From: Dialister histaminiformans | GTDB taxonomy: Bacteria > Bacillota > Negativicutes > Veillonellales > Dialisteraceae | NCBI RefSeq assembly: GCF_900103425.1 | Contig: NZ_FMXA01000007.1 | Span: 1-64,000 of the forward strand | Length of the DNA stretch: 64,000 bases | Direction: 5' to 3' | Shown here: piece after piece, positions 33,537 to 52,381 of the stretch | How the letters are laid out: every line of letters starts with the position of its first letter | Position numbering within the stretch: position 1 is the stretch's first letter | Made by a program: the position numbers and the translations under genes | The notes under the pieces: generated by a model | The model's input: the letters and a program-made list of their open reading frames with translations, nothing else | Told to the model about the DNA's origin: nothing | Databases searched by the model: none

Positions 33537-33557
33537 TTGATAGATTAACTTGATTTT

Positions 33558-33585: not shown

Positions 33586-33673
33586 TTGCCGCTTTAGCAT
33601 TGTCAGGCGATAAACGACAAGACCGGAAACGTGAGGTGTGGCTCACGAAAATTAAGCGTAACAGGAGGATATT

Positions 33674-34240: not shown

Positions 34241-34267
34241 TGAGTAACGAAAGAAGGAGAAATTAAT

Positions 34268-35182: not shown

Positions 35183-35209
35183 TCAGGTTAAATACATTGG
35201 AGGTGTCAT

Positions 35210-36876: not shown

Positions 36877-36879
36877 GAT

Positions 36880-37071: not shown

Positions 37072-37083
37072 GAGGAATAATCT

Positions 37084-38445
37084 ATGGCATTAGGCGGAGG
37101 CACCTGGCAGTTTCAGAACAAAATCCTGCCAGGCACATATATTAATTTTGTAAGCAAATACCGCGCAGAAGCAGCCATTGCAGACCGCGGTTATGCAACC
37201 ATGGCCATGGAAATGGACTGGGGCCCGGAAAATACTGTATTCGCGGTTACGAATGAGGATTTTCAGAATGATTCCATGAAGCTTTTTGGCTATGACTATG
37301 CATCTGATAAGTTGAAGCCGTTGCGTGATCTGTTTGAACATGCACGCTTGGTCTATTTCTATCGTTTGTCTAACAATGCGGTAAAGGCTTCTAACACTAT
37401 GGGTACAGCAAAGTATCCAGGCGTTCGTGGCAATGACATTACTACAGAAGTGGTTGCTAACGTAGACGATGAAACAAAGTTCGATGTCAATACCTACATT
37501 ACCGTTGATGGCGTGACTACAGTAGTGGATAAACAGAAGCTTCTCTCCAAGTGGAATGAAGTAGAGGATAACGATTATGTAGCATGGGCAACCCATGATG
37601 ATACAGCACTGAAGGCCGCGGCCGGAGTCCCGATGACAGGAGGTTCTAATGGCAGCGAAATTACTTCTATGCAGTATCAGAATTATCTGGACGTCATTTC
37701 CCCATATTACTTTAATACCATCGGGTATGCAGGGACTGACAATGTGATTCGTAACCTTTTTATTAACTTTACTAAGCGCATGAGAGATGAAACCGGGTCC
37801 AAATTCCAGTGCGTCGTATATGATGCAGAACAGGCTGACCATGAAGGCATTATCTCCATTGCAAATAAGGTTATGGATAAAGGAGAATCTCCGGCTAGCC
37901 TGGTATGGTGGGTAGTAGGTGCAGAAGCATCCTGTGCTATCAATGCATCCCTTACCAATGCCAACTATGACGGGGAATATACCGTGGACACCAAGTACAG
38001 CCAGCTGGACCTGCAGCGTGCTATTCAGACCGGACGTTTTATCTTCCACAACGTACAGGAAACTCTTTCTGGAGAATTGGTGGGAGCAACCAAGGTGCTG
38101 ACCGATATCAATACTTTCACTTCCTTTACTAAGTCCAAGAATTCTGATTTCTCTCATAACCAGGTTATCCGTGTTCTGGATCAGCTGGCAATTGATACCG
38201 CTAATCTGTTCAATAAGACCTATTTGGGTAAAGAGCAGAATGACGACGAAGGGAGAAAGGCACTCTGGGGAGACATGGTATACCTCAGAAAGGAGTATCA
38301 GCGCGTGCGTGCGATTCAGAATTATAAGGCAGAAGATACAGAAATTCCTACTCAGGGCACTGAAAAGACCGCTGTACTTTGCAGCGAAGAAATTCAACCG
38401 ACTTGCTGCATGGAAAAGCTGTACATTAATACCATTGTTGCGTAA
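37084..38445 (+). CDS. Contractile tail sheath protein (XkdK-like)
   Basis: 453 residues. The sheath shortens to drive the tube through the cell envelope, which makes this a myovirus. The pattern follows PBSX XkdK: an N-terminal PGTYINFVSK, a central DVISPYYFNTIGYAGTD, GEYTVDTKYSQLDLQRAIQTG, and a C-terminal domain with NQVIRVLDQLAIDTANLFN. It is the first of the contractile tail genes. Confidence 0.93.
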   Translation: MALGGGTWQFQNKILPGTYINFVSKYRAEAAIADRGYATMAMEMDWGPENTVFAVTNEDFQNDSMKLFGYDYASDKLKPLRDLFEHARLVYFYRLSNNAVKASNTMGTAKYPGVRGNDITTEVVANVDDETKFDVNTYITVDGVTTVVDKQKLLSKWNEVEDNDYVAWATHDDTALKAAAGVPMTGGSNGSEITSMQYQNYLDVISPYYFNTIGYAGTDNVIRNLFINFTKRMRDETGSKFQCVVYDAEQADHEGIISIANKVMDKGESPASLVWWVVGAEASCAINASLTNANYDGEYTVDTKYSQLDLQRAIQTGRFIFHNVQETLSGELVGATKVLTDINTFTSFTKSKNSDFSHNQVIRVLDQLAIDTANLFNKTYLGKEQNDDEGRKALWGDMVYLRKEYQRVRAIQNYKAEDTEIPTQGTEKTAVLCSEEIQPTCCMEKLYINTIVA

Positions 38446-38462
38446 GGGGGTAAGAATACTAA

Positions 38463-38951
38463 ATGGCAGCACCAATTAATGCGATTAGAACGATGCAGGC
38501 CAAGGATGTGGTCAATGCCCGCCTGGCATCCGCATACGTTACAGTCAACGGAGAACGATTCCTGCTGTTCCAGGCAAAGACACTGGAAGCAAAGTTTGAA
38601 AAGAGCAAGTCTGAAGTACCGATTCTTGGCCGTGTATCCTCTGGGCATAAGGCCACAGGGGGCAATGGAACTGGTTCTATGACAATTTACAAGAACACCT
38701 CCAGATTTACCAAGATGATGAAGGATTATAAGGACACCGGCTCTGATATCTATTTCGATATGCAGATTACCGCTAATGACCCAACATCGGATGCAGGAGA
38801 AGAAACTATTATCCTGAAAGATTGCAACCTGGACTCTGTTGTCGTGGCTGCATTCGATACATCCGGGGACTGGCTCGAACAGGAAGTTGATTTCACATTC
38901 GAGGACTGGGAAATGCCGACAGCATATAAGGATTTGGATGGTATGTTTTAA
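38463..38951 (+). CDS. Tail tube protein (XkdM-like)
   Basis: 162 residues, beta-rich, with VILGRVSSGHKATGGNGTGSMT-like spacing (written in part: GRVSSGHKATGGNGTGS) and DWLEQEVDFTFEDWEMP. It forms the inner tube through which DNA passes. Position directly after the sheath is diagnostic. Confidence 0.92.
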   Translation: MAAPINAIRTMQAKDVVNARLASAYVTVNGERFLLFQAKTLEAKFEKSKSEVPILGRVSSGHKATGGNGTGSMTIYKNTSRFTKMMKDYKDTGSDIYFDMQITANDPTSDAGEETIILKDCNLDSVVVAAFDTSGDWLEQEVDFTFEDWEMPTAYKDLDGMF

Positions 38952-38971
38952 GTAGTTAAAGGAGAATTGTA

Positions 38972-39397
38972 ATGGCTAATGATTTTAAAGCGTTCATGAA
39001 TGCCCCGAAAATTGCGGCAGCGGAAATGACCTATGTTGCAAGCCTGCGTTATACAGATGAAAATGGTAAGCCGGTTGAATGGCGTTTTAGACCTATCTCA
39101 GCCGCTGCCAACGAAGCTCTGTATACTGACTGCACCCATAAGTTCATTGGGCCGACTGGTAAGCAGGAAACCAAGGTGGATTTCGAAGAATATCAGGCAC
39201 GGCTGCTTGCTACCTGCATGACCTATCCAAGTCTTAATAATGCAGAACTTCAGGCACACTTTGGAGCAATCGGAGCAGAAGATCTGATTAAGAAGATGCT
39301 TCTCCCAGGTGAATATACTAACCTTTTCAAGGCCGTATCTCAGGCACTTGGGTTTGAAAACGACATGGAAGACAAGATTAAAGAAGCAAAAAACTAA
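38972..39397 (+). CDS. Tail assembly chaperone, short form (XkdN-like)
   Basis: 141 residues. Coats the tape measure during tail assembly. It ends EAKN at a TAA that directly follows a slippery heptamer, so a fraction of ribosomes is expected to shift by -1 and make the longer form (to 39576). Same position as XkdN in PBSX. Confidence 0.88.
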   Translation: MANDFKAFMNAPKIAAAEMTYVASLRYTDENGKPVEWRFRPISAAANEALYTDCTHKFIGPTGKQETKVDFEEYQARLLATCMTYPSLNNAELQAHFGAIGAEDLIKKMLLPGEYTNLFKAVSQALGFENDMEDKIKEAKN

Positions 39398-39576
39398 TAG
39401 AAGGCAACGATACATGGGCTAACGTTGCCTATTATTGCTTGTTTCGCTTTCATTGGCCACCGTCAAAACTAATGGCTCTGTCTTATGAGGACAGAGCTTT
39501 TATTGTGGCGGCTATTGAGATAAAGACGAAGAAAGATAAGAAGGCCATGAAAGAAGCTAAGCGTAAAGCAAAATAA
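38972..39576 (+). CDS. Tail assembly chaperone, -1 frameshift fusion
   Basis: The long form uses 38972-39394, then re-reads base 39394 and continues to the stop at 39574-39576, giving 201 residues. The extension starts LIEGNDTWANVAYY and includes LMALSYEDRAFIVAAIE and a very basic end (KKDKKAMKEAKRKAK). It has no good start codon or ribosome site of its own, which supports the frameshift. This is the G-GT arrangement of lambda and of most long-tailed phages. Confidence 0.85.
39388..39429 (+). promoter_or_regulatory. -1 ribosomal frameshift signal
   Basis: A-AAA-AAC (39388-39394), in the right phase, lies directly before the stop codon. Eight bases on, GGCAACG (39403-39409) pairs with CGTTGCC (39423-39429), a hairpin at the usual distance to stimulate slippage. 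Confidence 0.9.
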
Positions 39577-39595
39577 AAGGAAGGAGGGGTAGCTG

Positions 39596-41518
39596 GTGGC
39601 GGGAATTGTAGAAACTATAGAGCTTCACGACGGCATGAGCCCAGTGCTAAGGCAGATAACTAATCAGGTCGATTCTACATCAAACAGTTTTTCTGAAATG
39701 AAAGAGCAGGTGGAGAACACCGCAGAAAGCGGGGGAAGGCTCAAAACTGCATTTAATTCCATGGGGAGCGTATTAAAATCTGTAACCGGGCAGTTTGCAT
39801 TGGCAAACATTGCGGCAGCGGCTGCCATGAAGGCGGCTGATTTTATTAGCCAGATTCCTGGCAAGCTTGCAAAGGCATCTGATGAATATGCAGGCATACA
39901 GGCCAGACTTCAGATGGTGGTTGGCAGTGCTCAGGCTGCATCTGACATGAATGACCGAATCTTTGCATCGGCAATGAGAGCACGAGGCTCTTATGAAGGG
40001 ATGCTTTCTAATGTATCTAAAATCGCTATGACTGCAAAAGAGGCCTTCCCTGACCCTAAACAGGTAGTTCCTTTCGTAGAAGGCATACAGAAACTTTTTA
40101 CTATCGGGGGGACTGGTGTAGAAGAACAGAAAAACGCCATGCTGCAGTTAACTCAGGCTTTGGGTTCTGGTCGGCTGCAAGGTGACGAGTTCAGATCTAT
40201 AGCAGAAGCAGCACCAATGATTGAGCAGATGATTGCCAAAGAAATGGGAGTTACCCAGGGCAAGCTCAAAGAACTCAGCTCGAAGGGACTTATCACAGCG
40301 GATGTAATCAAGGACGCAATCTTTAATAATATGGATGAGATTAATCAGAAGTTCAGCCAGATGCCTATGACATTCGGCCAGATTGCGCAGCAGATAAATA
40401 ACGTACTGCAAAGGGCCTTTGCTCCGGCGCTTCAGGAGATTTCACAGATTGCAAATAGCGAAGGCATGAAGTCGTTTGCATCCGTAGCGGCGCAAGGGCT
40501 CATGATTGTCGGTTCTGCTTTGTCTGGAATCATATCCGGACTTTCTGCTCTTGGCAGTATGGTTATGGATGTTGGCAGTTATATTGGCGAATGGTTAAGT
40601 GCAGGATTTGTTGTTGCAGAATCAGCACTGGAAACCTTTGCACCGGTTCTGTTTACAGTGATGGGTGCTTATCTTGGCTATCAGGCCGCCATTGCCACAG
40701 GGTGGGCTATTGCAAATGTTCCGGCATATATCCACGCTGGTATTGTGACATTAGTCGCAGCCAAGACAGCCATAATGGCAGCTGTAACCTCTGCATGGAC
40801 TGCTGTGACAAAGGGCGCGACGGTTGCACAGGCCATGCTGAACGTTGTGCTTTCTCTCAATCCTCTGGGTATAGTTATTGGCTTGGTCGTTGCAGCCATT
40901 GGGGTATGGGCCGCCTGGCGTTCATCTACAGTAGGATTGAAGCAGACTGTCGCTGAAGCTTTTCGTGCGATTGCTAATATCGTGCAGGATTCGGTTAATA
41001 TCATGATTTCCGCAGTCAACGGATTGATTAAGGTCCTGAATGTGGCAGCGGGAGGCATTAACACTGTATTTGGCACTCACATTGGCAAGATTGACGAAAT
41101 CGGGCATGTTTCCGGTTGGGGAGACAGTGCATATAACTTTGTCCAGAACGATGGATGGAAGAATCTCATCCCGAAGTTCTCGATGCCTACTCCACAAGCC
41201 GTCGGTGCTGGAGCCGGCAGCGGTTATGGCAATATGCCTGATAACATTCAGGATATGGCAGATAGTGGGAGAAAGACCGCCGATAATACCCAGAAAATAG
41301 CCGATTCTGTAGATACACTTGACGAGGACCTGAAATATCTCAGAGATATAGCAGAACGTGAAGTAATTAACAAATATACAACCGCTCAGGTAACCGTAGA
41401 AATGGGCGGAGTTACTAATCAGATTTCAAATGAAACCGATATTGACGGGATCGTTGATTCTCTTACTCTCGGAATCCAGCGAGGGATGGAAAATGCGGCG
41501 AAGGAGGTTCACATTTAA
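39596..41518 (+). CDS. Tail tape measure protein
   Basis: 640 residues; its length would set the tail length. The N-terminal tape-measure domain (ASDEYAGIQARLQMV, QALGSGRLQGDEFRSIAEAAP) is followed by hydrophobic, Ala-rich helices (residues 300-470) and a C-terminal coiled segment. The start is GTG 39596 behind GGAGGGG. 640 residues is short for a myovirus, which implies a short tail. Confidence 0.9.
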   Translation: MAGIVETIELHDGMSPVLRQITNQVDSTSNSFSEMKEQVENTAESGGRLKTAFNSMGSVLKSVTGQFALANIAAAAAMKAADFISQIPGKLAKASDEYAGIQARLQMVVGSAQAASDMNDRIFASAMRARGSYEGMLSNVSKIAMTAKEAFPDPKQVVPFVEGIQKLFTIGGTGVEEQKNAMLQLTQALGSGRLQGDEFRSIAEAAPMIEQMIAKEMGVTQGKLKELSSKGLITADVIKDAIFNNMDEINQKFSQMPMTFGQIAQQINNVLQRAFAPALQEISQIANSEGMKSFASVAAQGLMIVGSALSGIISGLSALGSMVMDVGSYIGEWLSAGFVVAESALETFAPVLFTVMGAYLGYQAAIATGWAIANVPAYIHAGIVTLVAAKTAIMAAVTSAWTAVTKGATVAQAMLNVVLSLNPLGIVIGLVVAAIGVWAAWRSSTVGLKQTVAEAFRAIANIVQDSVNIMISAVNGLIKVLNVAAGGINTVFGTHIGKIDEIGHVSGWGDSAYNFVQNDGWKNLIPKFSMPTPQAVGAGAGSGYGNMPDNIQDMADSGRKTADNTQKIADSVDTLDEDLKYLRDIAEREVINKYTTAQVTVEMGGVTNQISNETDIDGIVDSLTLGIQRGMENAAKEVHI

Positions 41519-42241
41519 ATGTATTACTTCTTTATGGGGCTAACTCAGCTTCCAGTGCCTCCGGCCAGAATGACTGTTAAGGTACGGAGTAAGAATAAGG
41601 TGATCAACCTCATTAACGAGGGTGAAGCCAACCTTCTTAAAACTCCGGGACTTACTGAAATATCATTTGACGTACGACTTCCAAACAAGCGGTACCCATG
41701 GGCTAACTATGACAGCAGCCTTATGGGGAGTGCTGTTAATTCACTTGCGAGAAGGCTTACTGGCTCGAGCAATGTCTTTGGGTTCAAAGGCAGTAAATAT
41801 TTCTTGGACCAGTTCGAGCAGTATAAACGTGGGTGTGTTCCGTTCCGCTTTATTGTTACCCGCATGGGGCAGAGCGGTCTGAATATGTTGTTTTCAACGA
41901 ACATGTTAGTGACAATAGAAGATTATTCCATTGAAGAAAACGCGAGGGACGGATTTGACGTCACGGTGCCAGTGAAGCTTAAACAATATAAGCCGTTCGG
42001 GACAAAGACCGGAACTATCCAGACTGATGAAAACGGCAATAAGAAATTTGTTGTGAATGAACCTCGGGAAAGCATCGATAGAGCTATCCCAAACGCAATC
42101 CAGGTGACGAATCAGGCCAGCATCTGGGAGGCTGTACAGGGCGTTTCCAATGGGACTATTGACTGGCGTGACATTATGGCAAGCAACGGGATAGAAAACC
42201 CGCTGGAAGACGTACGAGGGAAAGTGCTGGTGATGCACTAA
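41519..42241 (+). CDS. LysM-containing tail protein (XkdP-like)
   Basis: 240 residues. The front half resembles the XkdP tail protein; the C-terminal segment ASIWEAVQGVSNGTIDWRD looks like a LysM domain, so it may touch peptidoglycan. Its ATG follows the previous stop directly. Confidence 0.78.
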   Translation: MYYFFMGLTQLPVPPARMTVKVRSKNKVINLINEGEANLLKTPGLTEISFDVRLPNKRYPWANYDSSLMGSAVNSLARRLTGSSNVFGFKGSKYFLDQFEQYKRGCVPFRFIVTRMGQSGLNMLFSTNMLVTIEDYSIEENARDGFDVTVPVKLKQYKPFGTKTGTIQTDENGNKKFVVNEPRESIDRAIPNAIQVTNQASIWEAVQGVSNGTIDWRDIMASNGIENPLEDVRGKVLVMH

Positions 42242-43767
42242 TGCCAGACACACAGGGACCAACATTAAATACCTTCACTGGCGGAGGGGATGGCCTGCAA
42301 ATGATTGTCTACCACAAGAAAACTGAGGAGTACTTTGTCCCGGCTGTATTAGACGGAGTGACATGGGAGCTGCATAGAAAAGGCGCTCCGGGAAAACTCA
42401 GTTTCAAAGTGGTTAAAGACGACATACTGAAAATGGAATATGGGGATACCGTGGATGTTTCCTGGAATGGGACGCAGTTTTTCCACGGTTTTATTTTTGA
42501 GAAAAAACGAAATAAGAATAAACAATGGGATTGTCTGGCTTACGACCAGATCCGGTATCTCCTGAATAAGGATTCTTTTTCTTATATCGGTAAAAAGGCT
42601 AATGAAGTAATTAAAGAACTGGCCGAGGACTATGAGTTATTAGTCGGTGATTTAGATGACACTGGGTTTGTTATAGAAAAAAGGCGGGAGCCAAATACCA
42701 CTATTCTGGATATGATTCAGAATGCATTGGACCTCACCATGATTCATACGAACAAGATGTATGTCCTCTATGATGATTGCGGGAAACTGACGCTGAAAGA
42801 CATAGAGAAACTGCAGACTAACCTGCTGATTGATTCTGACACGGCGCAGGATTATGCCTATACCGGAACTATAGATAAGGGTGTTTACAATCTCATCAAG
42901 TTAAATGTGGATGAAGGCGAGAATGGTCATAAGGTGTATTACGCTCCGGCATCAAACAAAGACTATGAGAATTCTGAAACCCGTAAGCAGTGGGGCGTGC
43001 TGGAGCTGACCCAGAACGCGAACCCTCACAACCAGTTTCCTCAGGATCTTGCTAACAGGCTGCTTGAAAACTATAACAAGGTGTCCAGAACACTCTCTAT
43101 AAAGGGAGCAGCGGGAGATTTGTCTGTGAGGGGCGGGTCTATGGTTTTTGTAAACATTAACCTTGGAGAAACCGATTGGCAGCAGTCTGACGATGAAGCC
43201 AAATTATCTATCGTTGAGACAGTAACCCATAGATTTTCAAACTTTGAACATACAATGGATATGGATGTCAGAAACGATAAGATAACCGGAGTCAGCAATG
43301 CTTCGGGCGGAGGTGGTGGAGCAGGTGGCGGCTCTAATGGCAGTAATAGCAACAATTCCAACGGATCTAATGCCACTCAGGCATCACAGAATATCGAACG
43401 TGGGGCCGATGCTTTTGTTGGAGCTACCATGCCTTCCGGCCAGAATGGATGCGTGGAAGCAGCTACACGAGTCGGAGGGTATAATTCACCATTCCTGGCC
43501 AGAGAAGCTAGGAACGGGGTTGCTGGAGTTAACCGGTTAGTTAGTGATGCGCATAGTTATGGCGTGCCGGTCATCCCGTACGATGAAAGCAAGCTTGAAG
43601 TCGGGGACACTATCGTCTACGGCAATAATAAGCATGTGGTCATTTCTTCTGGCGGATATTCTTACGTTGGCAACTCATCTAGCCGGCGCAAAGTGGTAAG
43701 AGGCTCAGATTACAGGGAAATGGGAGGACTGCATCCTACTTGGATAATTAAGACCTCTCACGGATAA
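42241..43767 (+). CDS. Tail hub protein with C-terminal NlpC/P60- or CHAP-like domain (XkdQ-like)
   Basis: 508 residues. Residues 1-350 are the baseplate hub (XkdQ-like, starting with DGLQMIVYHKKTEEYF). A Gly/Ser/Asn linker (about 353-380) leads to an enzyme-like domain with a Cys in GQNGCVEAATRVG and a His in NNKHVVISSGG, a plausible Cys-His pair for cutting wall peptides. Thus the tail tip would open the peptidoglycan during infection. The enzyme family is inferred from the motif order. Confidence 0.8.
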   Translation: MPDTQGPTLNTFTGGGDGLQMIVYHKKTEEYFVPAVLDGVTWELHRKGAPGKLSFKVVKDDILKMEYGDTVDVSWNGTQFFHGFIFEKKRNKNKQWDCLAYDQIRYLLNKDSFSYIGKKANEVIKELAEDYELLVGDLDDTGFVIEKRREPNTTILDMIQNALDLTMIHTNKMYVLYDDCGKLTLKDIEKLQTNLLIDSDTAQDYAYTGTIDKGVYNLIKLNVDEGENGHKVYYAPASNKDYENSETRKQWGVLELTQNANPHNQFPQDLANRLLENYNKVSRTLSIKGAAGDLSVRGGSMVFVNINLGETDWQQSDDEAKLSIVETVTHRFSNFEHTMDMDVRNDKITGVSNASGGGGGAGGGSNGSNSNNSNGSNATQASQNIERGADAFVGATMPSGQNGCVEAATRVGGYNSPFLAREARNGVAGVNRLVSDAHSYGVPVIPYDESKLEVGDTIVYGNNKHVVISSGGYSYVGNSSSRRKVVRGSDYREMGGLHPTWIIKTSHG

Positions 43768-43787
43768 ACGGATAAGAGGTGTTCATA

Positions 43788-44195
43788 TTGAATGGAAAGC
43801 TATACCAGACTCTCCAGGCAGCAATTAATCAGACAGTTAACAATATGCAGATGGGAGATTATATTCTTGGGACAGTTGAAACTGTTAATCCCGTAAGTAT
43901 ACGCATCTCACAGCGTGATCTGATTACCTCTGAATTCCTGCTCTTTACGGATGCTGTTAGAGATTTTGACGTGGATATAGAAGTTAACCACACTACAGAG
44001 AACAGGGCCGGTGGCGGTGGAGATGCTGAATTTGCCAGCCACAACCATGACTACAAGGGCAGGAAGAAAATCAGAGTCTATAACGGGCTGCATCCTGGCG
44101 AAGTTGTTATTCTTATCCGCCAGCAAGGCGCGCAGCAGTATGTAGTCCTATCCAGAATTTCGAATCATACGAATTTGTCAGGGCAGTGGGGGTGA
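43788..44195 (+). CDS. Baseplate protein (XkdR/DUF2577-like)
   Basis: 135 residues with ILGTVETVNPVSIRIS near the N-terminus and YNGLHPGEVVILIRQQGAQQYVVLSR near the end, the DUF2577 pattern. I start at TTG 43788 behind AAGAGGTG. Confidence 0.82.
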   Translation: MNGKLYQTLQAAINQTVNNMQMGDYILGTVETVNPVSIRISQRDLITSEFLLFTDAVRDFDVDIEVNHTTENRAGGGGDAEFASHNHDYKGRKKIRVYNGLHPGEVVILIRQQGAQQYVVLSRISNHTNLSGQWG

Positions 44196-44199
44196 TTAG

Positions 44200-44628
44200 A
44201 TGGCACTTTTACCAGATACAAGTCCTGACGGGGCTGGCAGCGGCGTTCAGATAGCCGTGCAGGAGACCTATCCCAACAAGACGTATAGGATGTGGATAGA
44301 TGAAGAAAAAATACAGGGCACAATTACTTCACAACTTGAAGCTGTAGAACAGGCCGTGTATAAAATCCTCAATACGGAAAGATACAAGCATGTGATTTAC
44401 TCATGGAATTACGGGGTAGAATTGGATGAACTTTTTGGTAAACCTATTCCGTATGTACTCCCGGAAATTCCCAGACGTATCACGGACGCACTCTTGCAGG
44501 ATGACAGAATCGAAGCGGTAACAAACTTTGACATGTCATATACAAAAGACGGCTCAGTGCTATGCAAATTTACCGTGGTTACTATTTATGGCACTTTACA
44601 GGGAGAAAAGGCGGTGAAAATCAATTAA
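44200..44628 (+). CDS. Baseplate wedge protein (XkdS/DUF2634-like)
   Basis: 142 residues. YKHVIYSWNYGVELDELFG and PEIPRRITDALLQDDRI are typical of the gp25-like/DUF2634 wedge proteins. Followed directly by the baseplate J gene. Confidence 0.87.
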   Translation: MALLPDTSPDGAGSGVQIAVQETYPNKTYRMWIDEEKIQGTITSQLEAVEQAVYKILNTERYKHVIYSWNYGVELDELFGKPIPYVLPEIPRRITDALLQDDRIEAVTNFDMSYTKDGSVLCKFTVVTIYGTLQGEKAVKIN

Positions 44629-45747
44629 ATGTATGAAGACCAAACACCAGAAGTCATAGAGAAACGAATTTTAAGGCGTATGGATAAAAGCATTGATAAA
44701 CGGGAAGGCTCAATTGCTTACGATGCGACTATGCCGGCAGCCATCGAATTTATGCTTCTGTATACAGCCATTGACTTCTTTTACAAGAATACATTTGGTG
44801 ATACGGCTGACAGAGAGCATCTGATTGAACGAGCCAAGGAAAGAGGACTTGAACCGTATGAGGCTACAAACGCCATTGTAATTATGGAGAGCCATCCGGA
44901 AATGTGCGTTCTCCCTATAGGCTCGAGATACTCAGTAGATGATATGAATTACAGGGTTACTTCCCGCCTGACCGCCGATGGGAATAGGTATCTTGCAGTA
45001 TGTGAAACGCCTGGCATTGTTGGAAATAAGACATATGGGAGAGCAGTTCCAATTCAGTATGTTGAAGGGCTTACCTATGCTGAAATTGTTGAAGTTGAAC
45101 GTCCAGGTGAAGACGAAGAAGACACCGAGGCTTTCCGGCAGCGGTATTTGAAATCTTTCCAGACGCAGGCTTATGGCGGAAATATCGCCGACTATCAGGA
45201 AAAGGTTGGCTCAATGCAGGGAATCGGTGGAGTTAAGGTTTATCCTGTATGGAATGGCGGCGGCACCGTTAAGGTGGTTTTTTCAACGTCTGAAAACAAG
45301 GCCCCAGACCAGCAGCTCGTGTCAGAAGTGCAGGAGGCCCTAGACCCAGTGCCTTATGCACAAAATGGCGTAGGTATTGCGCCGATTGGACATCGAGTAA
45401 CGGTTGAGGCTGCAGGAGAGAGTGCAATTAATATTGGCCTGAACATTAAGTTCTTGGGAACAGATGACTTTGAATCGTGCACTGATGATATCAAGGAGAC
45501 CATTCAGACATACTTTGATGAACTGAACGCAGGATGGCAGGATACAGAAGTAGTCACAACCAACAAGTATGAGAACAGGGGGATTGTTGTTCGTATATCT
45601 CAGATTGAGAGCCGTTTACTGGATAGGCCTTATGTATCTGATATTTCCCATACAACACTAAACGGGGAAGAAGAAAATATAGAATTACAAAATACTGACC
45701 TTGCCACCATCGGCACCATTACAGACATTTCAGGTGATAAAACATGA
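44629..45747 (+). CDS. Baseplate J-like protein (XkdT-like)
   Basis: 372 residues. Family blocks include PIGSRYSVDDMNYRVTS, EDTEAFRQRYLKSF, YGGNIADYQEKV and GIGGVKVYPVWNGGGTV. It builds the outer baseplate ring. Overlaps the next gene by four bases. Confidence 0.92.
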   Translation: MYEDQTPEVIEKRILRRMDKSIDKREGSIAYDATMPAAIEFMLLYTAIDFFYKNTFGDTADREHLIERAKERGLEPYEATNAIVIMESHPEMCVLPIGSRYSVDDMNYRVTSRLTADGNRYLAVCETPGIVGNKTYGRAVPIQYVEGLTYAEIVEVERPGEDEEDTEAFRQRYLKSFQTQAYGGNIADYQEKVGSMQGIGGVKVYPVWNGGGTVKVVFSTSENKAPDQQLVSEVQEALDPVPYAQNGVGIAPIGHRVTVEAAGESAINIGLNIKFLGTDDFESCTDDIKETIQTYFDELNAGWQDTEVVTTNKYENRGIVVRISQIESRLLDRPYVSDISHTTLNGEEENIELQNTDLATIGTITDISGDKT

Positions 45748-46382
45748 AGAAACTTGAGAGAGATGTACATGTAGAAAGATATTTTCCTGATGTGCTGGCT
45801 CCTGCGAAAGAAATGAAAGCCATTGCAGCAGGTGAGGACCCTGAGTTTCACTTGCTTTACGAGAAGGCATGGAAATGGTTTGCAAACACCTTCATTTTCC
45901 ACACAGATCTTGAAGGTGTGGAACGATGGGAAAGCATGCTCTCCATTATTCCAGATCCAGATGAATCCTTAAGTGACAGAAGACGTGAAATTCTTTTCAG
46001 GGTAAATAACCGACTTCCGTATACAGAACGTACATTAAAGCCGATATATGACATGCTTTACGGAAAGGATACTGTAATTCCGGAAGTCAGAGAAAATCAG
46101 TATGCGTTGGTGTTGAATTTAACCGGTGATGCAATCTGGGAAGCGGGAAAAGTTAAAACACAGGCCCGCTGCATTGCTCCGGCAAACTTAACCATCTTAG
46201 CGTGCAGAAATCTGGGAGACTATCCGTCTGAAATCTATGCGACTGGAATTTTGCGCAGCTATCGGTGTACACGATATGAAATGACAGCTAACGCACATAT
46301 TAGCGTTGATGATACGGGTATGCATATAGCCGGTGCTGTTGTACACAATTTTAAAAATCATGTTTTAGCAGGAGAGGAGTAA
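45744..46382 (+). CDS. Baseplate protein (XkdU/DUF2313-like)
   Basis: 212 residues, with YFPDVLAPAKEMKAI, a WESMLSI segment and SDRRREILFRVNNRLPYT. The tail-fibre genes follow, as usual for the XkdU position. Confidence 0.85.
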   Translation: MKKLERDVHVERYFPDVLAPAKEMKAIAAGEDPEFHLLYEKAWKWFANTFIFHTDLEGVERWESMLSIIPDPDESLSDRRREILFRVNNRLPYTERTLKPIYDMLYGKDTVIPEVRENQYALVLNLTGDAIWEAGKVKTQARCIAPANLTILACRNLGDYPSEIYATGILRSYRCTRYEMTANAHISVDDTGMHIAGAVVHNFKNHVLAGEE

Positions 46383-46385
46383 AAA

Positions 46386-46949
46386 ATGGCTCAGTTTCCA
46401 AAACTGAAATTTACTAATGACGGCATGGAAATGCTGATAAAAGCACAAAATGGGCATTCGCTTACCTTTACGTGTGCTAAGCTAGGCAGCGGCAGCCTGG
46501 AGTATAGCGATGATATTACAACATTCACCGATTTAAAGGCTCCAAAAATGACGCTGCCCATTGTTCTGGCCGATGACAGCCAGAAAGAAAAAATATCGTT
46601 GACGTTTAACGCGTCTAATGCGGATTTGGATGAAGGATTTATTTCCCGTGAATTAGGTGTTTTCGCAAAATTGGATGACGGGTCCGAAAAGCTGTATGCC
46701 TATAGTAATGCGGGAAATAATTACGACTATATCCCGAACAAAGACACACCAACGGACGAAAACAGATTGGTAATCGATTTAATTGTCAGCTCAAATGCAG
46801 AAATCAATGTTCTGATTGACGGCAGCATTGTATATGTCACGCGTAAAGATGTAGAGAATATGCTCGATAGCCGGCTGCAGGTAACAAAGACAGCAGATAA
46901 GCCAGCCAGCATGGATGATAAAGGGCTGTGGGTGGAAATAGTTGGATAA
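46386..46949 (+). CDS. Tail-fibre N-terminal/collar protein
   Basis: 187 residues with PKLKFTNDGMEMLIKAQ, FTCAKLGSG and FISRELGVFAKLDDGSEKLYAYSNAG, the fold that attaches phage fibres to the baseplate. It would connect the variable fibre tip, encoded next, to the tail. Confidence 0.82.
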   Translation: MAQFPKLKFTNDGMEMLIKAQNGHSLTFTCAKLGSGSLEYSDDITTFTDLKAPKMTLPIVLADDSQKEKISLTFNASNADLDEGFISRELGVFAKLDDGSEKLYAYSNAGNNYDYIPNKDTPTDENRLVIDLIVSSNAEINVLIDGSIVYVTRKDVENMLDSRLQVTKTADKPASMDDKGLWVEIVG

Positions 46950-46961
46950 GGAGGTATAGTA

Positions 46962-47447
46962 ATGAGCATTTTAAAATCAATCTTGCACAGATGGAATAAA
47001 GAGAATAAAAGCTATGATACATTGCATCCAGAAACAGAATCTGCGCAGATTACCGACTGGCACAGCGGAATTATAGCAAGTCTTGCAAGCAAGACGTTGG
47101 GAACCGTAGTGGATGCTATTACTACCGATTCCGTTCTCGGGAAGCTCATCAAGATGCTTTTGAACGCCAGCGGCGTGAAGTACCTTATTGATACTAATGG
47201 GTACGTTTGCTTTGGCGAATACTTCGGGGGATTAATTATACAGTGGGGACTTTCTAAAGAAAATAGTTCAAGCACAGCCACAATATCATTACCCCTTGCA
47301 TATCTGCATTCACAGCTTTTTGCCTCTGCAATTGATTGGGGCGCATATGGAAAAGCATACGGTGTTAATAACCTAGGGAAGGCATCATTTAATGTAGTAG
47401 CTCCTTTCACTCCGTTCTCTGTTTATTACCTTTCTATTGGTTACTGA
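46962..47447 (+). CDS. Variable tail-fibre tip, expressed form (constant part + cassette A)
   Basis: 161 residues. The constant part (residues 1-93) starts MSILKSILHRWNKENKSY and ends GLIIQWG; the ribosome site is AGGAGG. The site at 47240-47249 lies on the IQWG codons, so recombination there swaps everything after QWG. Cassette A supplies the present C-terminus (LSKENSSSTATISLPLAY to YYLSIGY), which looks like the gp53-like fibre tip domain. Four further cassettes downstream each carry a QWG start and a stop. The tip probably contacts the host receptor, so switching would change host range. Confidence 0.85.
   Translation: MSILKSILHRWNKENKSYDTLHPETESAQITDWHSGIIASLASKTLGTVVDAITTDSVLGKLIKMLLNASGVKYLIDTNGYVCFGEYFGGLIIQWGLSKENSSSTATISLPLAYLHSQLFASAIDWGAYGKAYGVNNLGKASFNVVAPFTPFSVYYLSIGY
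47240..47249 (+). repeat. Shufflon site A (at the constant/variable junction)
   Basis: ACAGTGGGGA, preceded by T and followed by CTTT. Encodes the IQWG joint of the expressed gene. Confidence 0.85.
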
Positions 47448-47457
47448 ACAGTGGGGA
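47448..47457 (+). repeat. Shufflon site B
   Basis: ACAGTGGGGA followed by AATGT, in direct orientation to site A and directly after the stop of cassette A. Confidence 0.85.
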
Positions 47458-47667
47458 AATGTTGCAGACATTGCAAGACAATCGTATGTAACAATGCCAT
47501 TAAGTGCAGTCCCTATAACAGTAGTTGCAAATGACATAACGATGCAGGGGGACCCGCTCGTTTTAAGCACGTGGGGATACAAAAAAGGCGCATTCATGAT
47601 TGACGGTAAGCGGATTACCAAAGGATATGGAAATCTGTGGGCGATGTGGATTGCTATCTGCAGATAA
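47449..47667 (+). pseudogene. Silent tail-fibre cassette B
   Basis: Reads QWGNVADIARQSYVTMPLSA onward to LWAMWIAICR and stop. It has no start codon or ribosome site of its own (a chance ATG lies 12 bases before). It ends tail to tail with cassette C in the shared palindrome TATCTGCAGATA (47655-47666). Expression would need its site to be moved to site A. Confidence 0.82.
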
Positions 47668-47893
47668 CCACCCCTGAGAAGCCTCCCATGCTGGTGGATG
47701 CCGTGGCAAATCTCAGCCTCTGCCCATCTGAAAAACCTGCCTTGAAAGTTGCTGTGTATTTATCACTGATAGATGTGCCATTGGTTCGACTGGTATCATA
47801 GTCGGTGGCAAGAACTTGAAAAACTTTACTTACCTGCAACGGTAAAATCCAATCGCAATAGGTGGAATTCCCAAAGCTTACATTTCCCCACTG
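47654..47893 (-). pseudogene. Silent tail-fibre cassette C
   Basis: On the minus strand from site C: QWGNVSFGNSTYCDWILPL onward to GGFSGVVICR and stop. An inversion between sites A and C would place it directly behind the constant part. Its last three residues (ICR) match those of cassette B because both use the central palindrome. Confidence 0.82.
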
Positions 47894-47894
47894 T
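47885..47894 (-). repeat. Shufflon site C
   Basis: The complement of ACAGTGGGGA, followed (minus strand) by AATGT. Inverted relative to sites A and B. Confidence 0.85.
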
Positions 47895-48098
47895 TTACAC
47901 TACCCCTATTATAATCACATGACACCTAGTATCTGAGGTGGTACCCGGGCCATATATAATAAGGTAATCTGGGCTGAATCCAAAAGCATATCTAGCCATC
48001 CCATGGTCTGATACCACGCCAGCTAGGCATCTATTCACCGTAATGGGAAGAGAAACTTTATACTGATCGACCCCTGTTATAACATAAAGTCCCCACTG
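47895..48098 (-). pseudogene. Silent tail-fibre cassette D
   Basis: On the minus strand: QWGLYVITGVDQYKVSLPIT onward to CHVIIIGVV and stop. The TAA is the first part of TAAACAG at site C, so cassette end and next site abut exactly. Inversion A-D would express it. Confidence 0.82.
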
Positions 48099-48099
48099 T
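48090..48099 (-). repeat. Shufflon site D
   Basis: The complement of ACAGTGGGGA, followed (minus strand) by CTTT, the same variant as site A. Confidence 0.85.
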
Positions 48100-48351
48100 T
48101 TAAGCGACACCAACCACTAAGACGCATCCGCCGATTGTGTCTCCACTATAGGTAGCTCCAAATCGCATATTAATTTCCGTGTTGGAAATCGCCGTGACAA
48201 CATACCCCATAGGTATACTGTCTGCGCCACCCTTATGGGCGGCAGCTATATACAAAACATTGTGTATTCCTATCGGTTGATGGAATGTTCCTTCAAATAT
48301 GTTTTGCCCATTTAATTGTTTTGTACGATTACAAGTGACATTTCCCCACTG
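48100..48351 (-). pseudogene. Silent tail-fibre cassette E
   Basis: On the minus strand: QWGNVTCNRTKQLNGQNIFE onward to GGCVLVVGVA and stop, whose TAA abuts site D. The frame stays open upstream through the right flank to 48522 or beyond, so it could also be read as part of a longer minus-strand frame. Inversion A-E would express it. Confidence 0.8.
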
Positions 48352-48352
48352 T
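48343..48352 (-). repeat. Shufflon site E
   Basis: The complement of ACAGTGGGGA, followed (minus strand) by AATGT. The outermost site on the recombinase side. Confidence 0.85.
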
Positions 48353-48586
48353 ATACTGGTTGCTTTTGGAGGAGAGAACGATGGGGAATATGCACGGTCC
48401 CTGAAAAGATTTGCTTTTATTGCAATCCAATATTTACGCTGGTTGTGGGCATTTTGGGAAATCAGTAATTCTGGAATCACCCTATTTTCATCGGATTTGC
48501 TGGAAACAGTAGTAACAACCACGAAATCACAAAATATATAGCGAAATCGTGGCTGTCATCTGATTTACAGTATCGCATTAGTAACA
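48353..48586 (-). other. Right flank of the shufflon
   Basis: About 235 bases between site E and the recombinase gene. The minus strand is open in the frame that enters cassette E and reads NQRKYWIAIKANLF and PPKATSIQWG. YWIAI resembles the last strand of gp53-like tips, so this may be a decayed sixth cassette or a second, promoterless constant end. No start with a ribosome site was seen. Confidence 0.4.
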
Positions 48587-49612
48587 TTATTTTAATAGTT
48601 CAATGCATTTCCGGAGTTGCCTAGTATTTTTGTGGGTATAGACGCGCTCGGTGACATCGCCGCCCGCGTGCCCTAAGATGCGCCGCTTGGAAGTTTCGTT
48701 GGCCCCGGCATTGTCAAGCAAGGTTGTGACAGTGTGCCGGCAATCATGCGTTGTGTGGCCAGTCGCGTTGATGAGCTGCATCACGGCACGCCAGATGATA
48801 CAATAGCGGCTATAGTCATATGGTTTCCCACTGGCATCACTCAGAAGAGTAGCCCCCGGAGAATCCATCCTGCCAATAATCAATGGAAGAATTCTGGGAT
48901 GGATGGGAATAATCCGGATGCCGGAAACGGTTTTGCTCTTGGTGATACGGATGAAACGTTGCCGGATGTTGACGTCTGACTTATGGAGATGGAGCAGTTC
49001 TCCGACTCTCATACCCGTATAAAGCAATATCAGCACAGTATCAACGTTGTCGTTGCAAGCGGATTTCCATAAACGGTTTATCTTCTGCCGGCTAAATGGT
49101 TTATGTGGCCGGACCTGCTTGTTCTTTCCGATGGATAAGAGCGGAGCATAGTTCTTATTGGTCAGCTCAATCTTGCTAGCATACTGAGATAGTAATGAAA
49201 TAAGTGATCGCACCTTTTTAAGCGAGCTGTACGACAGCCCGCTTTTTCTCATATCATCTATGATTCTTTGATAGTCCATGTATTTCAGGTCAATAAACGG
49301 TTTCTGGTGCAGTGATGAGAGATGCTTGAATGAATTTTCATAGCTGCACAGTGTCGATTTTGATGGCGAGGTATCTGCCGTGTGTGCTGGCAGCCACCGA
49401 TGGTACAGTTCTTCCAGTGTTATTTGATGTCCAGGAAGGGAGCGATGGCTATGAGTCTTGTTGTAATCAGCTTGAAAGATTTCAGCGTCAATCTGGTTGG
49501 TAAAATATTCAACAGGTCTTTGTTTACCATTCTCCGATATTACAAAAACGAACGGCCTCCTCCGGTTTCCGGACAGCCGTTTGATGCAGCCATATCCATT
49601 TGGTTTACGCAT
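48587..49612 (-). CDS. Tyrosine recombinase of the tail-fibre shufflon (Rci-like role)
   Basis: 341 residues, starting at the ATG at 49612 because AAGGAGG lies 8 bases before it; an upstream ATG lies inside the ribosome-site hairpin. The catalytic set is complete: Arg in YTGMRVGEL, Lys in TKSKTVSG, His-x-x-Arg in THDCRHTV, His in LGHAGGD and Tyr in ERVYTH. It differs clearly from the prophage integrase at 13792. It stands alone against the direction of the tail operon, next to the five inverted and direct sites, so its likely task is cassette inversion rather than integration. Tail-operon transcripts would run antisense through it. Confidence 0.9.
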   Translation of the reverse strand: MRKPNGYGCIKRLSGNRRRPFVFVISENGKQRPVEYFTNQIDAEIFQADYNKTHSHRSLPGHQITLEELYHRWLPAHTADTSPSKSTLCSYENSFKHLSSLHQKPFIDLKYMDYQRIIDDMRKSGLSYSSLKKVRSLISLLSQYASKIELTNKNYAPLLSIGKNKQVRPHKPFSRQKINRLWKSACNDNVDTVLILLYTGMRVGELLHLHKSDVNIRQRFIRITKSKTVSGIRIIPIHPRILPLIIGRMDSPGATLLSDASGKPYDYSRYCIIWRAVMQLINATGHTTHDCRHTVTTLLDNAGANETSKRRILGHAGGDVTERVYTHKNTRQLRKCIELLK

Positions 49613-49620
49613 AATAAAGA

Positions 49621-49635
49621 CCTCCTTCATGGAGG
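49621..49635 (-). promoter_or_regulatory. Hairpin covering the recombinase ribosome site
   Basis: On the minus strand, CCTCC-ATGAA-GGAGG folds into a 5-bp stem that holds the AAGGAGG ribosome site. It would lower translation of the recombinase. The same bases on the plus strand are also a short hairpin. Confidence 0.5.
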
Positions 49636-49661
49636 CTATTTTACTATATGGAGGATAATAA

Positions 49662-50111
49662 ATGATTAACAGCAGTGCAACGAATGTAGATTATTACGTT
49701 TCAGGCTTTAACTCAACCGGCAAGAGGGTAGGATCCATTATCTGCGACTTTGACCCGAACAAAGAAAAGAACGCAGACAAGGTGTCTGCACTCATAGATA
49801 AAGCGAAAGAGCTATTTACCGATGCGGAGGTTGTAGAAGTTATCTCTGCCGCCGACTATGCAAGGTATTTGTCGGGCGAATATGTAAGGGGAGCGGAGGG
49901 CAAGCCTGTTGCTTACATTGCACCGGAGCCGACCTCCGCAGAAAAGAAAGCGTCTGCTATTGCTACGATTAAAGCAAAGTACCAGCCAACTTTGGAGAAC
50001 CTTATAGAAGCAAGGGTAAAAGCGGCTATGTTGGGAGCTGATACGTCGAAAATTGACAGCCAGTATAAAACCACACTCGCCAATATGGCGGCTGAAATTA
50101 AAAATGCATAA
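49662..50111 (+). CDS. Phage protein after the tail fibre, 149 residues
   Basis: The ATG follows TGGAGGA. It has DYYVSGFNSTGKRVGSI at the N-terminus, a Lys/Glu-rich middle and a helical end (KASAIATIKAKYQPTLENLIEA). By place it could help fibre assembly; not recognised with certainty. Confidence 0.6.
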   Translation: MINSSATNVDYYVSGFNSTGKRVGSIICDFDPNKEKNADKVSALIDKAKELFTDAEVVEVISAADYARYLSGEYVRGAEGKPVAYIAPEPTSAEKKASAIATIKAKYQPTLENLIEARVKAAMLGADTSKIDSQYKTTLANMAAEIKNA

Positions 50112-50123
50112 GGGGGTTAAATC

Positions 50124-50285
50124 ATGGAATTTTGCGAATACTGTGGGAACCTTTTGAATGATGATGGCCGATGCCCTTGGGACGAATGCCCACGCAATGC
50201 GATTATTGACGCCATAGCTGAAGCCAAGAAAGCTGATGAGCAGAAAGACAAAACTGCAGAAAATAAAACTAATAACAATGGGTGA
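50124..50285 (+). CDS. Small zinc-finger-like phage protein, 53 residues
   Basis: Starts MEFCEYCGNLLNDDGRCPW and then DECPRNAI, with CxxC and CPxxxC pairs that suggest a zinc knuckle, followed by a Lys/Glu/Asn-rich tail. The ribosome site is AGGGGG. It lies between fibre and lysis genes, overlapping neither. Confidence 0.6.
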   Translation: MEFCEYCGNLLNDDGRCPWDECPRNAIIDAIAEAKKADEQKDKTAENKTNNNG

Positions 50286-50288
50286 TGT

Positions 50289-50798
50289 ATGATTACAGAT
50301 ATAGTTAAGGGAGCAGGGCAGACGGTCTCATCCATCACAACAGGATGGGTAGAAAAGTTAATCATCAGTGGAACACTGATTGCCCTTGAAAAGCACTGTG
50401 TAATTTTTGTGCTATTCACCATGGTTGTTTTCATAGACCTGCTAGCCAAATGGATTGCGCTTGCATACAAAGAACTTGTACATGAGCGTGCAACTGATAG
50501 ATCGTTATTATCATGCATCAAGGCCATACCAGAAGCACATCGTAAAGGCATCATCAACTCCTATGTCATGAAAACACAGTTTGTAGGGAAGATAATTGTA
50601 TATATGCTGATAACCTTACCGGCTATATGCATAGATACCGCGATAAAGGTATCCGGAGGACATGCTGAGTTTGGTATGATGGTACTTGCTTACTTGTGTT
50701 TAACAGAACTTTTATCAATTGTGGAAAACTTAAATGATGCGGGAGTATCAGCATTATCAGGACTGATTACTGCAATCAAAGGGAAACGAGGTGATTAA
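50289..50798 (+). CDS. Phage holin
   Basis: 169 residues with three or so hydrophobic helices (CVIFVLFTMVVFIDLLAKWIAL, IIVYMLITLPAICI, MMVLAYLCLTELLSIVENL). This is the pattern of the phage_holin_4/toxin-secretion holin group. It makes lesions in the inner membrane at the end of the lytic cycle and adjoins the endolysin gene. Confidence 0.85.
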   Translation: MITDIVKGAGQTVSSITTGWVEKLIISGTLIALEKHCVIFVLFTMVVFIDLLAKWIALAYKELVHERATDRSLLSCIKAIPEAHRKGIINSYVMKTQFVGKIIVYMLITLPAICIDTAIKVSGGHAEFGMMVLAYLCLTELLSIVENLNDAGVSALSGLITAIKGKRGD

Positions 50799-51398
50799 AT
50801 GATTAAGGGTATAGATGTAAGTAAATGGCAGCAGAACTTTGATTTTAAACTCGCAAAGGAATTAGGCTATGATTTCTGCATAGTAAGAGCAGGTAGAACA
50901 ACCGCTGCCGGCCAGCCGGTTATGGATGAAGATTTTTATGAAAATATTAATGGCGCTAAGCGCGCTGGGCTGGACGTTGGCATTTATTACTACTCGCTGG
51001 CTACTACCAAAGAAATTGCAGTCCGAGAAGCTGACTGGATCCACAAGCTGCTAAATAGCGACTTGAGAAATACCGCTTTGAAGTCAGGCATTTGGATTGA
51101 CGTTGAGGATTCCAAACAGGCGAAGTTATCACCGGAAAGATTAACCTCAGTTATAATGGCTGGCATAAACCGGCTTAACTCATACGGCCACTATGTTGGG
51201 CTGTACTCAAGTTGCTCATTCTTCAGAAATAATGTAGTTCTGAAAAATCTCCCTGGATATATTCCATTGTGGGTGGCACAGTACGGTAAAGAAAATACGC
51301 TCAAAAAACTGTACCCAAGGAAAACAATCTCCGCTTGGCAGTATTCTGACCGTGGAAAAATTGGCAATAATACAGTTGACTTAAATATTTGGTATTAA
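50799..51398 (+). CDS. GH25 lysozyme endolysin
   Basis: 199 residues, a single glycoside hydrolase family 25 domain with no wall-binding domain or signal peptide. It has GIDVSKWQQNFDF at the start with the catalytic Asp, a middle GIWIDVEDSKQ with the acid Glu, and WQYSDRGKIGNNTVDLN at the end. Holin release is implied. The start abuts the holin stop. Confidence 0.93.
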   Translation: MIKGIDVSKWQQNFDFKLAKELGYDFCIVRAGRTTAAGQPVMDEDFYENINGAKRAGLDVGIYYYSLATTKEIAVREADWIHKLLNSDLRNTALKSGIWIDVEDSKQAKLSPERLTSVIMAGINRLNSYGHYVGLYSSCSFFRNNVVLKNLPGYIPLWVAQYGKENTLKKLYPRKTISAWQYSDRGKIGNNTVDLNIWY

Positions 51399-51562
51399 AA
51401 ATTGTGGAAATGTCAAAAATCTTAAAATCAGCACAAAATAGGGCTTGTTTTTCGCATCGTCCATGAGTAATTTGCCATAGAATTAATAAAAATGCGTTAA
51501 AAGTATCTTTTTGCGCGAATTCTCATTTAAAAAAGAGATTTATCAATAAAGAAGGGGGCAAA

Positions 51563-52036
51563 ATGTGGGAAAAATCAAAAACTTTGTTAAAAATCATGGT
51601 CTTGACGTTTTGTCTGTCGTTATCCTTGCCGTGGTTGTCTTCTGCTGCGGATATGATTACTACCTCAGAAGCAGGACCTCGAACGACTATCGTGATGTCA
51701 ACCGAACAGTGGACAACGTTGAAACAAGAATTGACAGAGCAGACAATCGAGCTAAATCAGCTCAGACAGAAATTAAAAATGCTGAGGTCCACATCCGGAG
51801 AGCAGATAAAACTTCTCGAGAGCTTACAAAACGATCTGAGCAAAACACAAGAGAACTTGATGAGTGCCAACGTCTCGTTGACGGCATGTCGAAACGAGCT
51901 GAAAGAATCCAGGGCATCATTGCAGACGTTGAAAAATCAAATCAAGACTCTGAAGCACAAACAAACCGTGACTCGTAGGCAGCGGGATGTATGGGCAGCC
52001 TTATGCGGTTTGGTACTCGTGGCAAGTGTTCGGTAA
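51563..52036 (+). CDS. Spanin-like lysis protein A (signal peptide, coiled coil, C-terminal helix)
   Basis: 157 residues from ATG 51563 behind GAAGGGGG. A signal-like N-terminus (LLKIMVLTFCLSLSLPWLSSAA) leads to a long coiled coil (residues 50-135) and a final hydrophobic stretch (VWAALCGLVLVASV). Its place after the endolysin fits spanin function, needed to disrupt the outer membrane of a diderm host. No lipobox cysteine is evident, so it is not a classic Rz1. The gene contains a second gene in the +2 frame along nearly all of its length. Confidence 0.7.
   Translation: MWEKSKTLLKIMVLTFCLSLSLPWLSSAADMITTSEAGPRTTIVMSTEQWTTLKQELTEQTIELNQLRQKLKMLRSTSGEQIKLLESLQNDLSKTQENLMSANVSLTACRNELKESRASLQTLKNQIKTLKHKQTVTRRQRDVWAALCGLVLVASVR
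51565..51978 (+). CDS. Spanin-like lysis protein B, nested in another frame
   Basis: 137 residues from GTG 51565, two bases after the ATG of protein A (ATGTG), so one ribosome site serves both. It has one transmembrane helix (VLSVVILAVVVFCCGYDYYL) and then a polar coiled coil (RTVDNVETRIDRADNRAK), the plan of an Rz-type inner-membrane spanin. The clear helix and heptad-like spacing in this frame are hard to explain as a shadow of protein A. Its expression is not proven. Confidence 0.65.
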   Translation: MGKIKNFVKNHGLDVLSVVILAVVVFCCGYDYYLRSRTSNDYRDVNRTVDNVETRIDRADNRAKSAQTEIKNAEVHIRRADKTSRELTKRSEQNTRELDECQRLVDGMSKRAERIQGIIADVEKSNQDSEAQTNRDS

Positions 52037-52049
52037 TTCCGAACAGTTC

Positions 52050-52126
52050 AGTTGTTCAATTAGTTGTTCAATCATAATGGCAGCTGTAACCTCTGAATTT
52101 TTAGTTGTTTAATCAGTTGTTGTATA
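52050..52126. repeat. Two pairs of AGTTGTTyAAT repeats
   Basis: AGTTGTTCAAT occurs at 52050 and 52062, AGTTGTTTAAT at 52103, and AGTTGTTGTAT at 52115. Each pair is spaced 12 bases, which suggests protein-binding sites near the right prophage end. Confidence 0.5.
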
Positions 52127-52167
52127 ATAGGCTTAATTGAGGCGTGCATTTTGGGATACACGTCTGA

Positions 52168-52196
52168 GGGAGAGGCATTGTTCCTCTCCCTTTTTT
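52168..52196 (+). terminator. Terminator of the lysis operon
   Basis: GGGAGAGG-loop-CCTCTCCC followed by six T. Confidence 0.9.
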
Positions 52197-52304
52197 CGTT
52201 TTCAAAAAACGCATATTTTGTAAATGAAGATTCCTTCGATTACAAAAATCGCATTTTTTATAATTGAACTTGTCGGGATTTCCGACAGGTTAGATCACAT
52301 AAAA

Positions 52305-52343
52305 AGAGAGCATGTACATAATGGAATGTACGTGCTCTCTTTT
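52305..52343. terminator. Second terminator at the right prophage end
   Basis: A 13-bp stem (AGAGAGCATGTAC / GTACGTGCTCTCT, with one G-T pair) ending in TTT, with AAAAA on its left, so it may work on both strands. Nothing coding was supported between 52037 and 52490. Confidence 0.75.
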
Positions 52344-52360
52344 CGTGTCAAAAATGGAAG

Positions 52361-52381
52361 TCGTCAAAAAATCGTCAAAAA
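52361..52381. repeat. Right pair of probable integrase arm-binding sites
   Basis: The same 21-bp block of two TCGTCAAAAA units as at 13768-13788. A further partial copy (GTGTCAAAAAT) lies at 52345-52355. Confidence 0.65.

Follow-up and report, generated by a model that had tools for sequence, protein, structure and literature searches.

Introduction

The closest published kin, in kind, of the locus described here are the Rin tyrosine shufflons of Bifidobacterium and Eggerthella prophages, the match being one of layout and description. In the Bifidobacterium prophages a phage tyrosine recombinase adjoins a constant receptor-binding-protein gene and its silent C-terminal cassettes, a short asymmetric site of 11 base pairs (bp), rix, precedes every cassette and is also present in the gene, and natural inversions were seen in prophages, virions and reads (Mavrich 2018, PMC6109161). 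The Rin-type systems of Eggerthella lenta clade 1 have a tyrosine recombinase, silent cassettes and a site after the stop codon, and the cassettes often contain H-type lectin domains (PMC8778435). Here, an array of this kind is described from a prophage in 64,000 nucleotides of the Dialister histaminiformans contig NZ_FMXA01000007.1 (the window): one expressed tail-fibre gene, four further silent C-terminal tips, five recombination sites in both orientations and an adjacent tyrosine recombinase gene. The locus is very probably a phage tail-fibre shufflon run by its own tyrosine recombinase, a reading that rests on rearrangements in relatives rather than on reads of this strain, and the virus is probably able to switch its host-gripping fibre tip.

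Five sites and five fibre tips

The window contains exactly five copies of the 10-mer ACAGTGGGGA, all within positions 47240–48352. Two copies were in the forward orientation (sites A and B at 47240 and 47448) and three in the reverse (sites C, D and E at 47894, 48099 and 48352), as had been stated in an earlier note made from the sequence alone. Of 2000 dinucleotide shuffles of positions 46962–48586, none contained a 10-mer in five copies, the largest number being four, once. The extended element TNNACAGTGGNNA ending in GGGA was found at these five places alone in the whole 1.70-Mb genome.

Each site opens an open reading frame (ORF) beginning with QWG, and the five tips so defined are listed in Table 1. 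The stop codons of tips A, D and E directly precede the next site, and tips B and C lie tail to tail with a 14-bp overlap (stops at 47667 and 47654), an arrangement of ORFs that agrees with the earlier note. Since CAG TGG GGA is read in one phase at every site, each cassette join keeps the reading frame. Pairwise identity among the five tips was 19–32%. The full expressed fibre matched the Gp53-like C-terminal domain PF21882 with 28.8 bits (cut-off 24.9), and the silent tips B, D and E on their own gave no significant Pfam match. In the structural model of the expressed fibre (mean predicted local distance difference test score, pLDDT, 72.5) a helical stem is followed by an all-beta domain, and QWG lies within the first strand of that domain. 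The best solved Foldseek matches of the expressed tip were phage AP22 gp53 and the R1/R2 pyocin fibres (4mtm, 6cl6; E 4e-5 to 6e-5), by analogy with which the tips may be receptor-binding. Lectins of the Helix agglutinin type were weaker matches, lower down the list.

Natural rearrangements in related prophages

The decisive evidence for a shufflon is the natural inversions of the relatives. Two Veillonella-type prophages (L029 and L030) have flanks that are identical over 6143 and 5321 bp. When they were compared base by base, 427 bp between opposed sites were the exact reverse complement (0/427 mismatches) and the 3000-bp flanks showed 0 mismatches. One of the two sites lies in the fibre gene; the expressed tip therefore differs, beginning KRQERN... 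in one phage and KFIPETAN... in the other.

A genome of the window's bacterial family, assembled as a single 2.4-Mb contig (G009), carries two copies of a prophage (at C1:430593 and C1:941444) which were 99.99% identical over 7.35 kb. Cassettes of 232, 441 and 216 bp are the same in sequence in both, with the 232-bp block inverted and the 441-bp block moved, without a mismatch, and the 10-bp core is shared by overlapping alignment blocks. Two inversions explain this rearrangement, and the expressed position holds the same tip in both copies. Cassettes were also rearranged between L034 and L035, of which the flanks are 100% and 99.98% identical, and the places of two tips were exchanged between L038 and L076, with flanks about 87–90% identical. 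Homology between the window and its nearest relative (L058) breaks off at sites E and A, one on either side. The search of related genomes for the site and for cassette homologues, which the earlier note had proposed, thus returned homologous arrays in which the cassette order varies among related prophages, and its shufflon reading is supported by site-to-site inversions between near-identical relatives, one of which swaps the expressed tip.

The adjacent tyrosine recombinase

The recombinase is full length and matched Pfam Phage_integrase (3.8e-17) and the PHROG integrase family (4e-49). Its catalytic set, R208, K233, H295, R298, H321 and Y331, is intact and was invariant across 27 relatives. 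Identity to the prophage's own integrase was 23% over 205 amino acids (aa), which bears out the claim that a second, complete and distinct tyrosine recombinase is present. The model of the enzyme (mean pLDDT 75) was matched by Foldseek to the Tn1549 integrase and full-length lambda integrase (E 1e-11 to 2e-10), and an N-terminal arm-type domain seems to be retained in a part that is poorly modelled.

Two other kinds of system were considered for the locus and rejected. The serine resolvase/invertase family PF00239 had 0 matches in the whole genome (the control matched 10/14), so inversion of the Gin/Cin type by an enzyme of its own is unlikely. Reverse transcriptase (RVT_1) likewise had 0 matches in the genome, which makes a diversity-generating retroelement unlikely.

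The recombination site

Over about 147 sites the constant element was T-N2-(7-bp core)-N2-A, in which the A is invariant and the T at position −3 usual; beyond the core and these two bases, conservation was near background. The motif of the earlier note is hence exact in the window as a 10-mer, but it does not stand as a free-standing unit and is better written T-N2-ACAGTGG-N2-A. Position 10, a wobble base, was A in 147/147 sites against a background of 29.6% A. The codons that carry this A are GGA, GTA, ATA, TTA and GAA, and the residue varies accordingly between G, V, I, L and E. A base fixed at the wobble position while the residue varies is the reverse of what selection on the protein does and indicates a constraint at the DNA level. 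The T at −3 derives partly from the stop codon of the preceding tip, yet 63 of the 89 sites that lack this stop have it as well. Counted from the middle of the core, the T and the A are both 6 bp away, a symmetry that would fit a 7-bp overlap with weak symmetric flanking contacts.

The cores are specific to lineages: ACAGTGG, CCAGGGG, C/ACAAGGG and CCAAGGT, with ACAGGGG in one contig and CCACCGA in L097. Mapped on the recombinase tree, the 7 core states required 7 changes, whereas none of 300 shuffles needed fewer than 19. The core of the QWG/QGG lineages sits on the fibre codons Q-(W/G)-G; elsewhere in the tips GGA makes up only 32% of the Gly codons and CAG 23% of the Gln codons.

One site variant, CCAAGGGAGGA, has a single extra base; it was observed in L034 at about 4302 (−), in the expressed position, and in L035 at about 4571 (+), in a silent position. 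The extra base comes after base seven and stays with its tip when the flank is different, which places the exchange inside the leading seven bases. When the variant is expressed, which is the case in L034, it would be predicted to shift the frame of the fibre.

Distribution of the recombinase and its arrays

Dozens of related recombinases were found in viral and bacterial genome contigs. Identity to the window's enzyme was 95% in Acidaminococcus intestini, 70–73% in Megasphaera, about 61% in rumen contigs and 44–52% in Veillonella and Gallibacterium, and the enzyme was carried by 19 of the 61 species genomes examined from the window bacterium's order. The arrays of the relatives have a common design, in which the enzyme gene faces the cassettes and the fibre gene that is expressed lies at the far end, and contain 2 to 13 sites (11 exact and 2 variant sites in L091, 11 in L014 and 9 in L088). 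Where the contig reaches the array, such arrays were present with recombinases of at least 39% identity and none was found at 35% or below; the comparison leaves out a broken locus (L093) and the contigs that end short of the array. Distant matches in the phage collection, from Fusobacterium, Butyrivibrio and Ruminococcus phages, were rejected as ordinary integrases, judged by their gene neighbours, and a tblastn search of the same collection gave no bifidophage match.

At the lower end of the identity range, the invertase relative of L097 (4251–5319; 39% identity) adjoins four copies of CCACCGATGA on a different, collar-type family of tips with the codons S/A-T-D-E, which suggests that the shufflon system moved onto another fibre type. 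Closely similar tips (LLAEEQWVY...,.EETxTSF...) were noticed in L059, L091 and L096 despite quite different invertases and array positions, and cassettes seem to be traded between phages. The array of L088 holds one tip in two copies (6881+ and 8945−), of which one is silent and the other expressed; simple inversion does not account for such a duplication. Butyrivibrio phage Arawn (L084, 8905–10050) has an annotated reverse transcriptase close to its late genes, which may belong to a diversity-generating retroelement.

Proposed mechanism and alternatives

The working of the array may be depicted as follows. The recombinase would act on pairs of opposed T-N2-ACAGTGG-N2-A sites and invert the DNA between them. 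As all sites lie in one frame on Q-W-G, where the C-terminal beta domain of the fibre begins, an inversion involving site A would join the constant stem of 93 residues in frame to another receptor-binding tip. Tips C, D and E could each be expressed in one step by A-C, A-D and A-E inversion and tip B would take two, and inversions without site A would rearrange the silent cassettes among themselves. From the pattern of the sites, the 7-bp core may be the overlap of strand exchange. The locus may be active in this strain, and the tips may alter host range.

More tentatively, and with somewhat less than even confidence, the relatives may represent an integrase-derived lineage of invertases whose strand-exchange overlap is written into obligatory fibre codons, with one 7-bp core (ACAGTGG, CCAGGGG, C/ACAAGGG or CCAAGGT) per lineage. 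With little fixed outside the core except the T and the A, cassettes would be tradable among phages of one core type, and the deeper branch represented by L097 would have moved to a different fibre family, with S/A-T-D-E codons.

Several points weigh against an active shufflon with its own enzyme. The viral contigs were searched for another arrangement of the window array and gave an identical copy only (L004), the one other public copy, which has the same cassette order and may be of the same genome as the window's. That the adjacent enzyme performs the inversion is our deduction from adjacency and co-variation. The direct repeats A/B and C/D/E could also yield deletions, and assembly error is a slight possibility for contigs from short reads. 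The unchanged order in L004, together with an array that was assembled unbroken on a 100-kb contig, would also fit a fossil, that is, an array that inverted formerly and is now fixed, its recombinase no longer expressed or active. We regard this as unlikely, since the catalytic residues are all intact, the five sites are perfect, the five tips are open and the rearrangements in the relatives are very recent.

Homologous recombination swaps fibre tips in many phages, and Q-(W/G)-G is a conserved motif of the fibre protein, so that tips might have been exchanged at these codons without site-specific recombination. A mere 7–10 bp are shared, however, and the inverted blocks are exact, with 0 mismatches; the synonymous choices are frozen at the sites in contrast to the codon usage elsewhere in the tips, and a dedicated recombinase adjoins the array, all of which renders this explanation highly improbable. 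Hardly more credit is given to the recombinase being a second integrase, the remnant of another prophage, that came by chance to lie beside an array shuffled in trans by another enzyme. More distant kin of the enzyme (35% identity or less) do include ordinary integrases beside repressor genes. Against this stand the adjacency of the recombinase to such arrays in dozens of loci, the prediction of the core sequence by its lineage, and a genome without any serine resolvase/invertase.

Comparison with described systems

Like the Rin shufflons, the window has a constant fibre gene, at least two silent C-terminal cassettes and a short asymmetric repeat before each, in both orientations; rearranged orders with breakpoints at the repeats were found in the relatives and not for the window's own array. 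The Bifidobacterium systems differ in the sequence of the site, in tips that resemble the TP901-1 receptor-binding protein and in their Actinobacteria hosts (PMC6109161). Those of E. lenta differ in the site (8 bp, ttccgtat) and in host phylum; lectins of the kind found in their cassettes match weakly here too (PMC8778435). The proposal that a tyrosine recombinase serves a phage fibre tip is accordingly true here but not new in itself, given these Rin shufflons.

The parallel drawn in the earlier note with the R64/IncI1 plasmid system (Rci, sfx, pilV) is right in layout, in that a tyrosine recombinase inverts multiple C-terminal tips and the site has a 7-bp core with a variable flank. Neither enzyme nor site is R64-like. 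Identity to Rci was 25% over 142 aa, the alignment stopping near residue 279 of its 384; the window's invertase lacks the extra C-terminal domain of Rci and ends 16 aa past the catalytic Tyr. R64 serves a pilus and not a phage fibre, and sfx has a conserved 12-bp right arm (PMC11852207) which the sites of the window's family lack, their sequence being background beyond position 10. In the haloarchaeal viruses phiCh1 and phiH1 a virus tyrosine recombinase (Int1) also inverts tail-fibre genes, but two fibre genes flank the recombinase and there is no multi-cassette array, and the viruses are archaeal (PMC6471424, PMC8651126). Mu Gin, P1 Cin, p15B Min and the gin shufflon of FR-phi invert the ends of phage tail fibres by serine recombinases, of which this genome has none; in FR-phi a single tip isoform decides infection (PMC13418256). 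An inverton of 428 bp with 14-bp repeats in Megasphaera DSM 102144 (1932707–1933134) flips in culture (PMC11892184); by its size it is a candidate for a tail-to-tail pair of cassettes of this family.

The literature searched, which excluded the wide survey of Milman 2023 that could include them, gave no account of this enzyme lineage, of its sites on conserved codons or of its lineage-specific cores. Within that literature the kind of system is already known, and the enzyme lineage with its codon-embedded, lineage-specific cores is the new part. Tyrosine-recombinase shufflons of fibre tips are thereby extended from phages of Actinobacteria to a large family in Negativicutes and to Gallibacterium prophages. 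The relatives supply natural pairs of states before and after rearrangement, the site rule predicts which cassettes are joinable, and several pairs of enzyme and core are available; tip switching in these gut and rumen phages becomes directly testable. For readers of genomes it is also a warning that such prophage fibres get assembled in one of several states.

Other features of the prophage

The prophage that contains the array has a contractile-tail gene set, and its last tail genes are the collar fibre gene and the short fibre gene (46962–47447) that ends in tip A. Structured RNA was looked for at the shufflon locus and none was found.

Table 1. Features of the prophage and of the fibre array, in coordinates of the window.
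Feature	Position	Strand	Remarks
Prophage	13768..52381		Bounded by 21-bp direct repeat TCGTCAAAAAATCGTCAAAAA (at 13768 and 52361), putative attachment (att) site; phage gene order
Prophage integrase	13792..14868	−	Separate from the invertase
Tail-collar fibre gene	46386..46949	+	N-terminal fibre module as its own gene; PHROG tail fiber 2.3e-37
Expressed fibre gene, constant part	46962..47240	+	93 aa, ending ...FGGLII
Recombination site A	47237..47249	+	TATACAGTGGGGA; within the expressed fibre gene
Tip A, expressed	47241..47447	+	68 aa, Gp53-like_C
Recombination site B	47445..47457	+	TGAACAGTGGGGA; includes the tip A stop
Tip B, silent	47449..47667	+	72 aa
Tip C, silent	47654..47893	−	79 aa, tail to tail with B
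Recombination site C	47885..47897	−	TAAACAGTGGGGA
Tip D, silent	47895..48098	−	67 aa
Recombination site D	48090..48102	−	TAAACAGTGGGGA
Tip E, silent	48100..48351	−	83 aa
Recombination site E	48343..48355	−	TATACAGTGGGGA; homology to nearest relative L058 ends here
Tyrosine invertase	48587..49612	−	ORF opens at 49630; conserved start probably 49612
Small tail gene downstream	49662..50111	+	Weak match to tail fibre assembly proteins (phrog_32639 4.1e-06, phrog_188 0.015)

Elsewhere in the prophage, the large terminase gene reads as two ORFs (28656–29177 and 29616–30290). A frameshift was rejected as the cause, the interruption being a group I intron (RF00028, 86 bits) at 29049–29405 (+) that splits the gene. 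Directly 3′ of the GH25 lysozyme gene, two ORFs overlap in different frames (51563–52036 and 51565–51978, +), possibly an embedded spanin pair.
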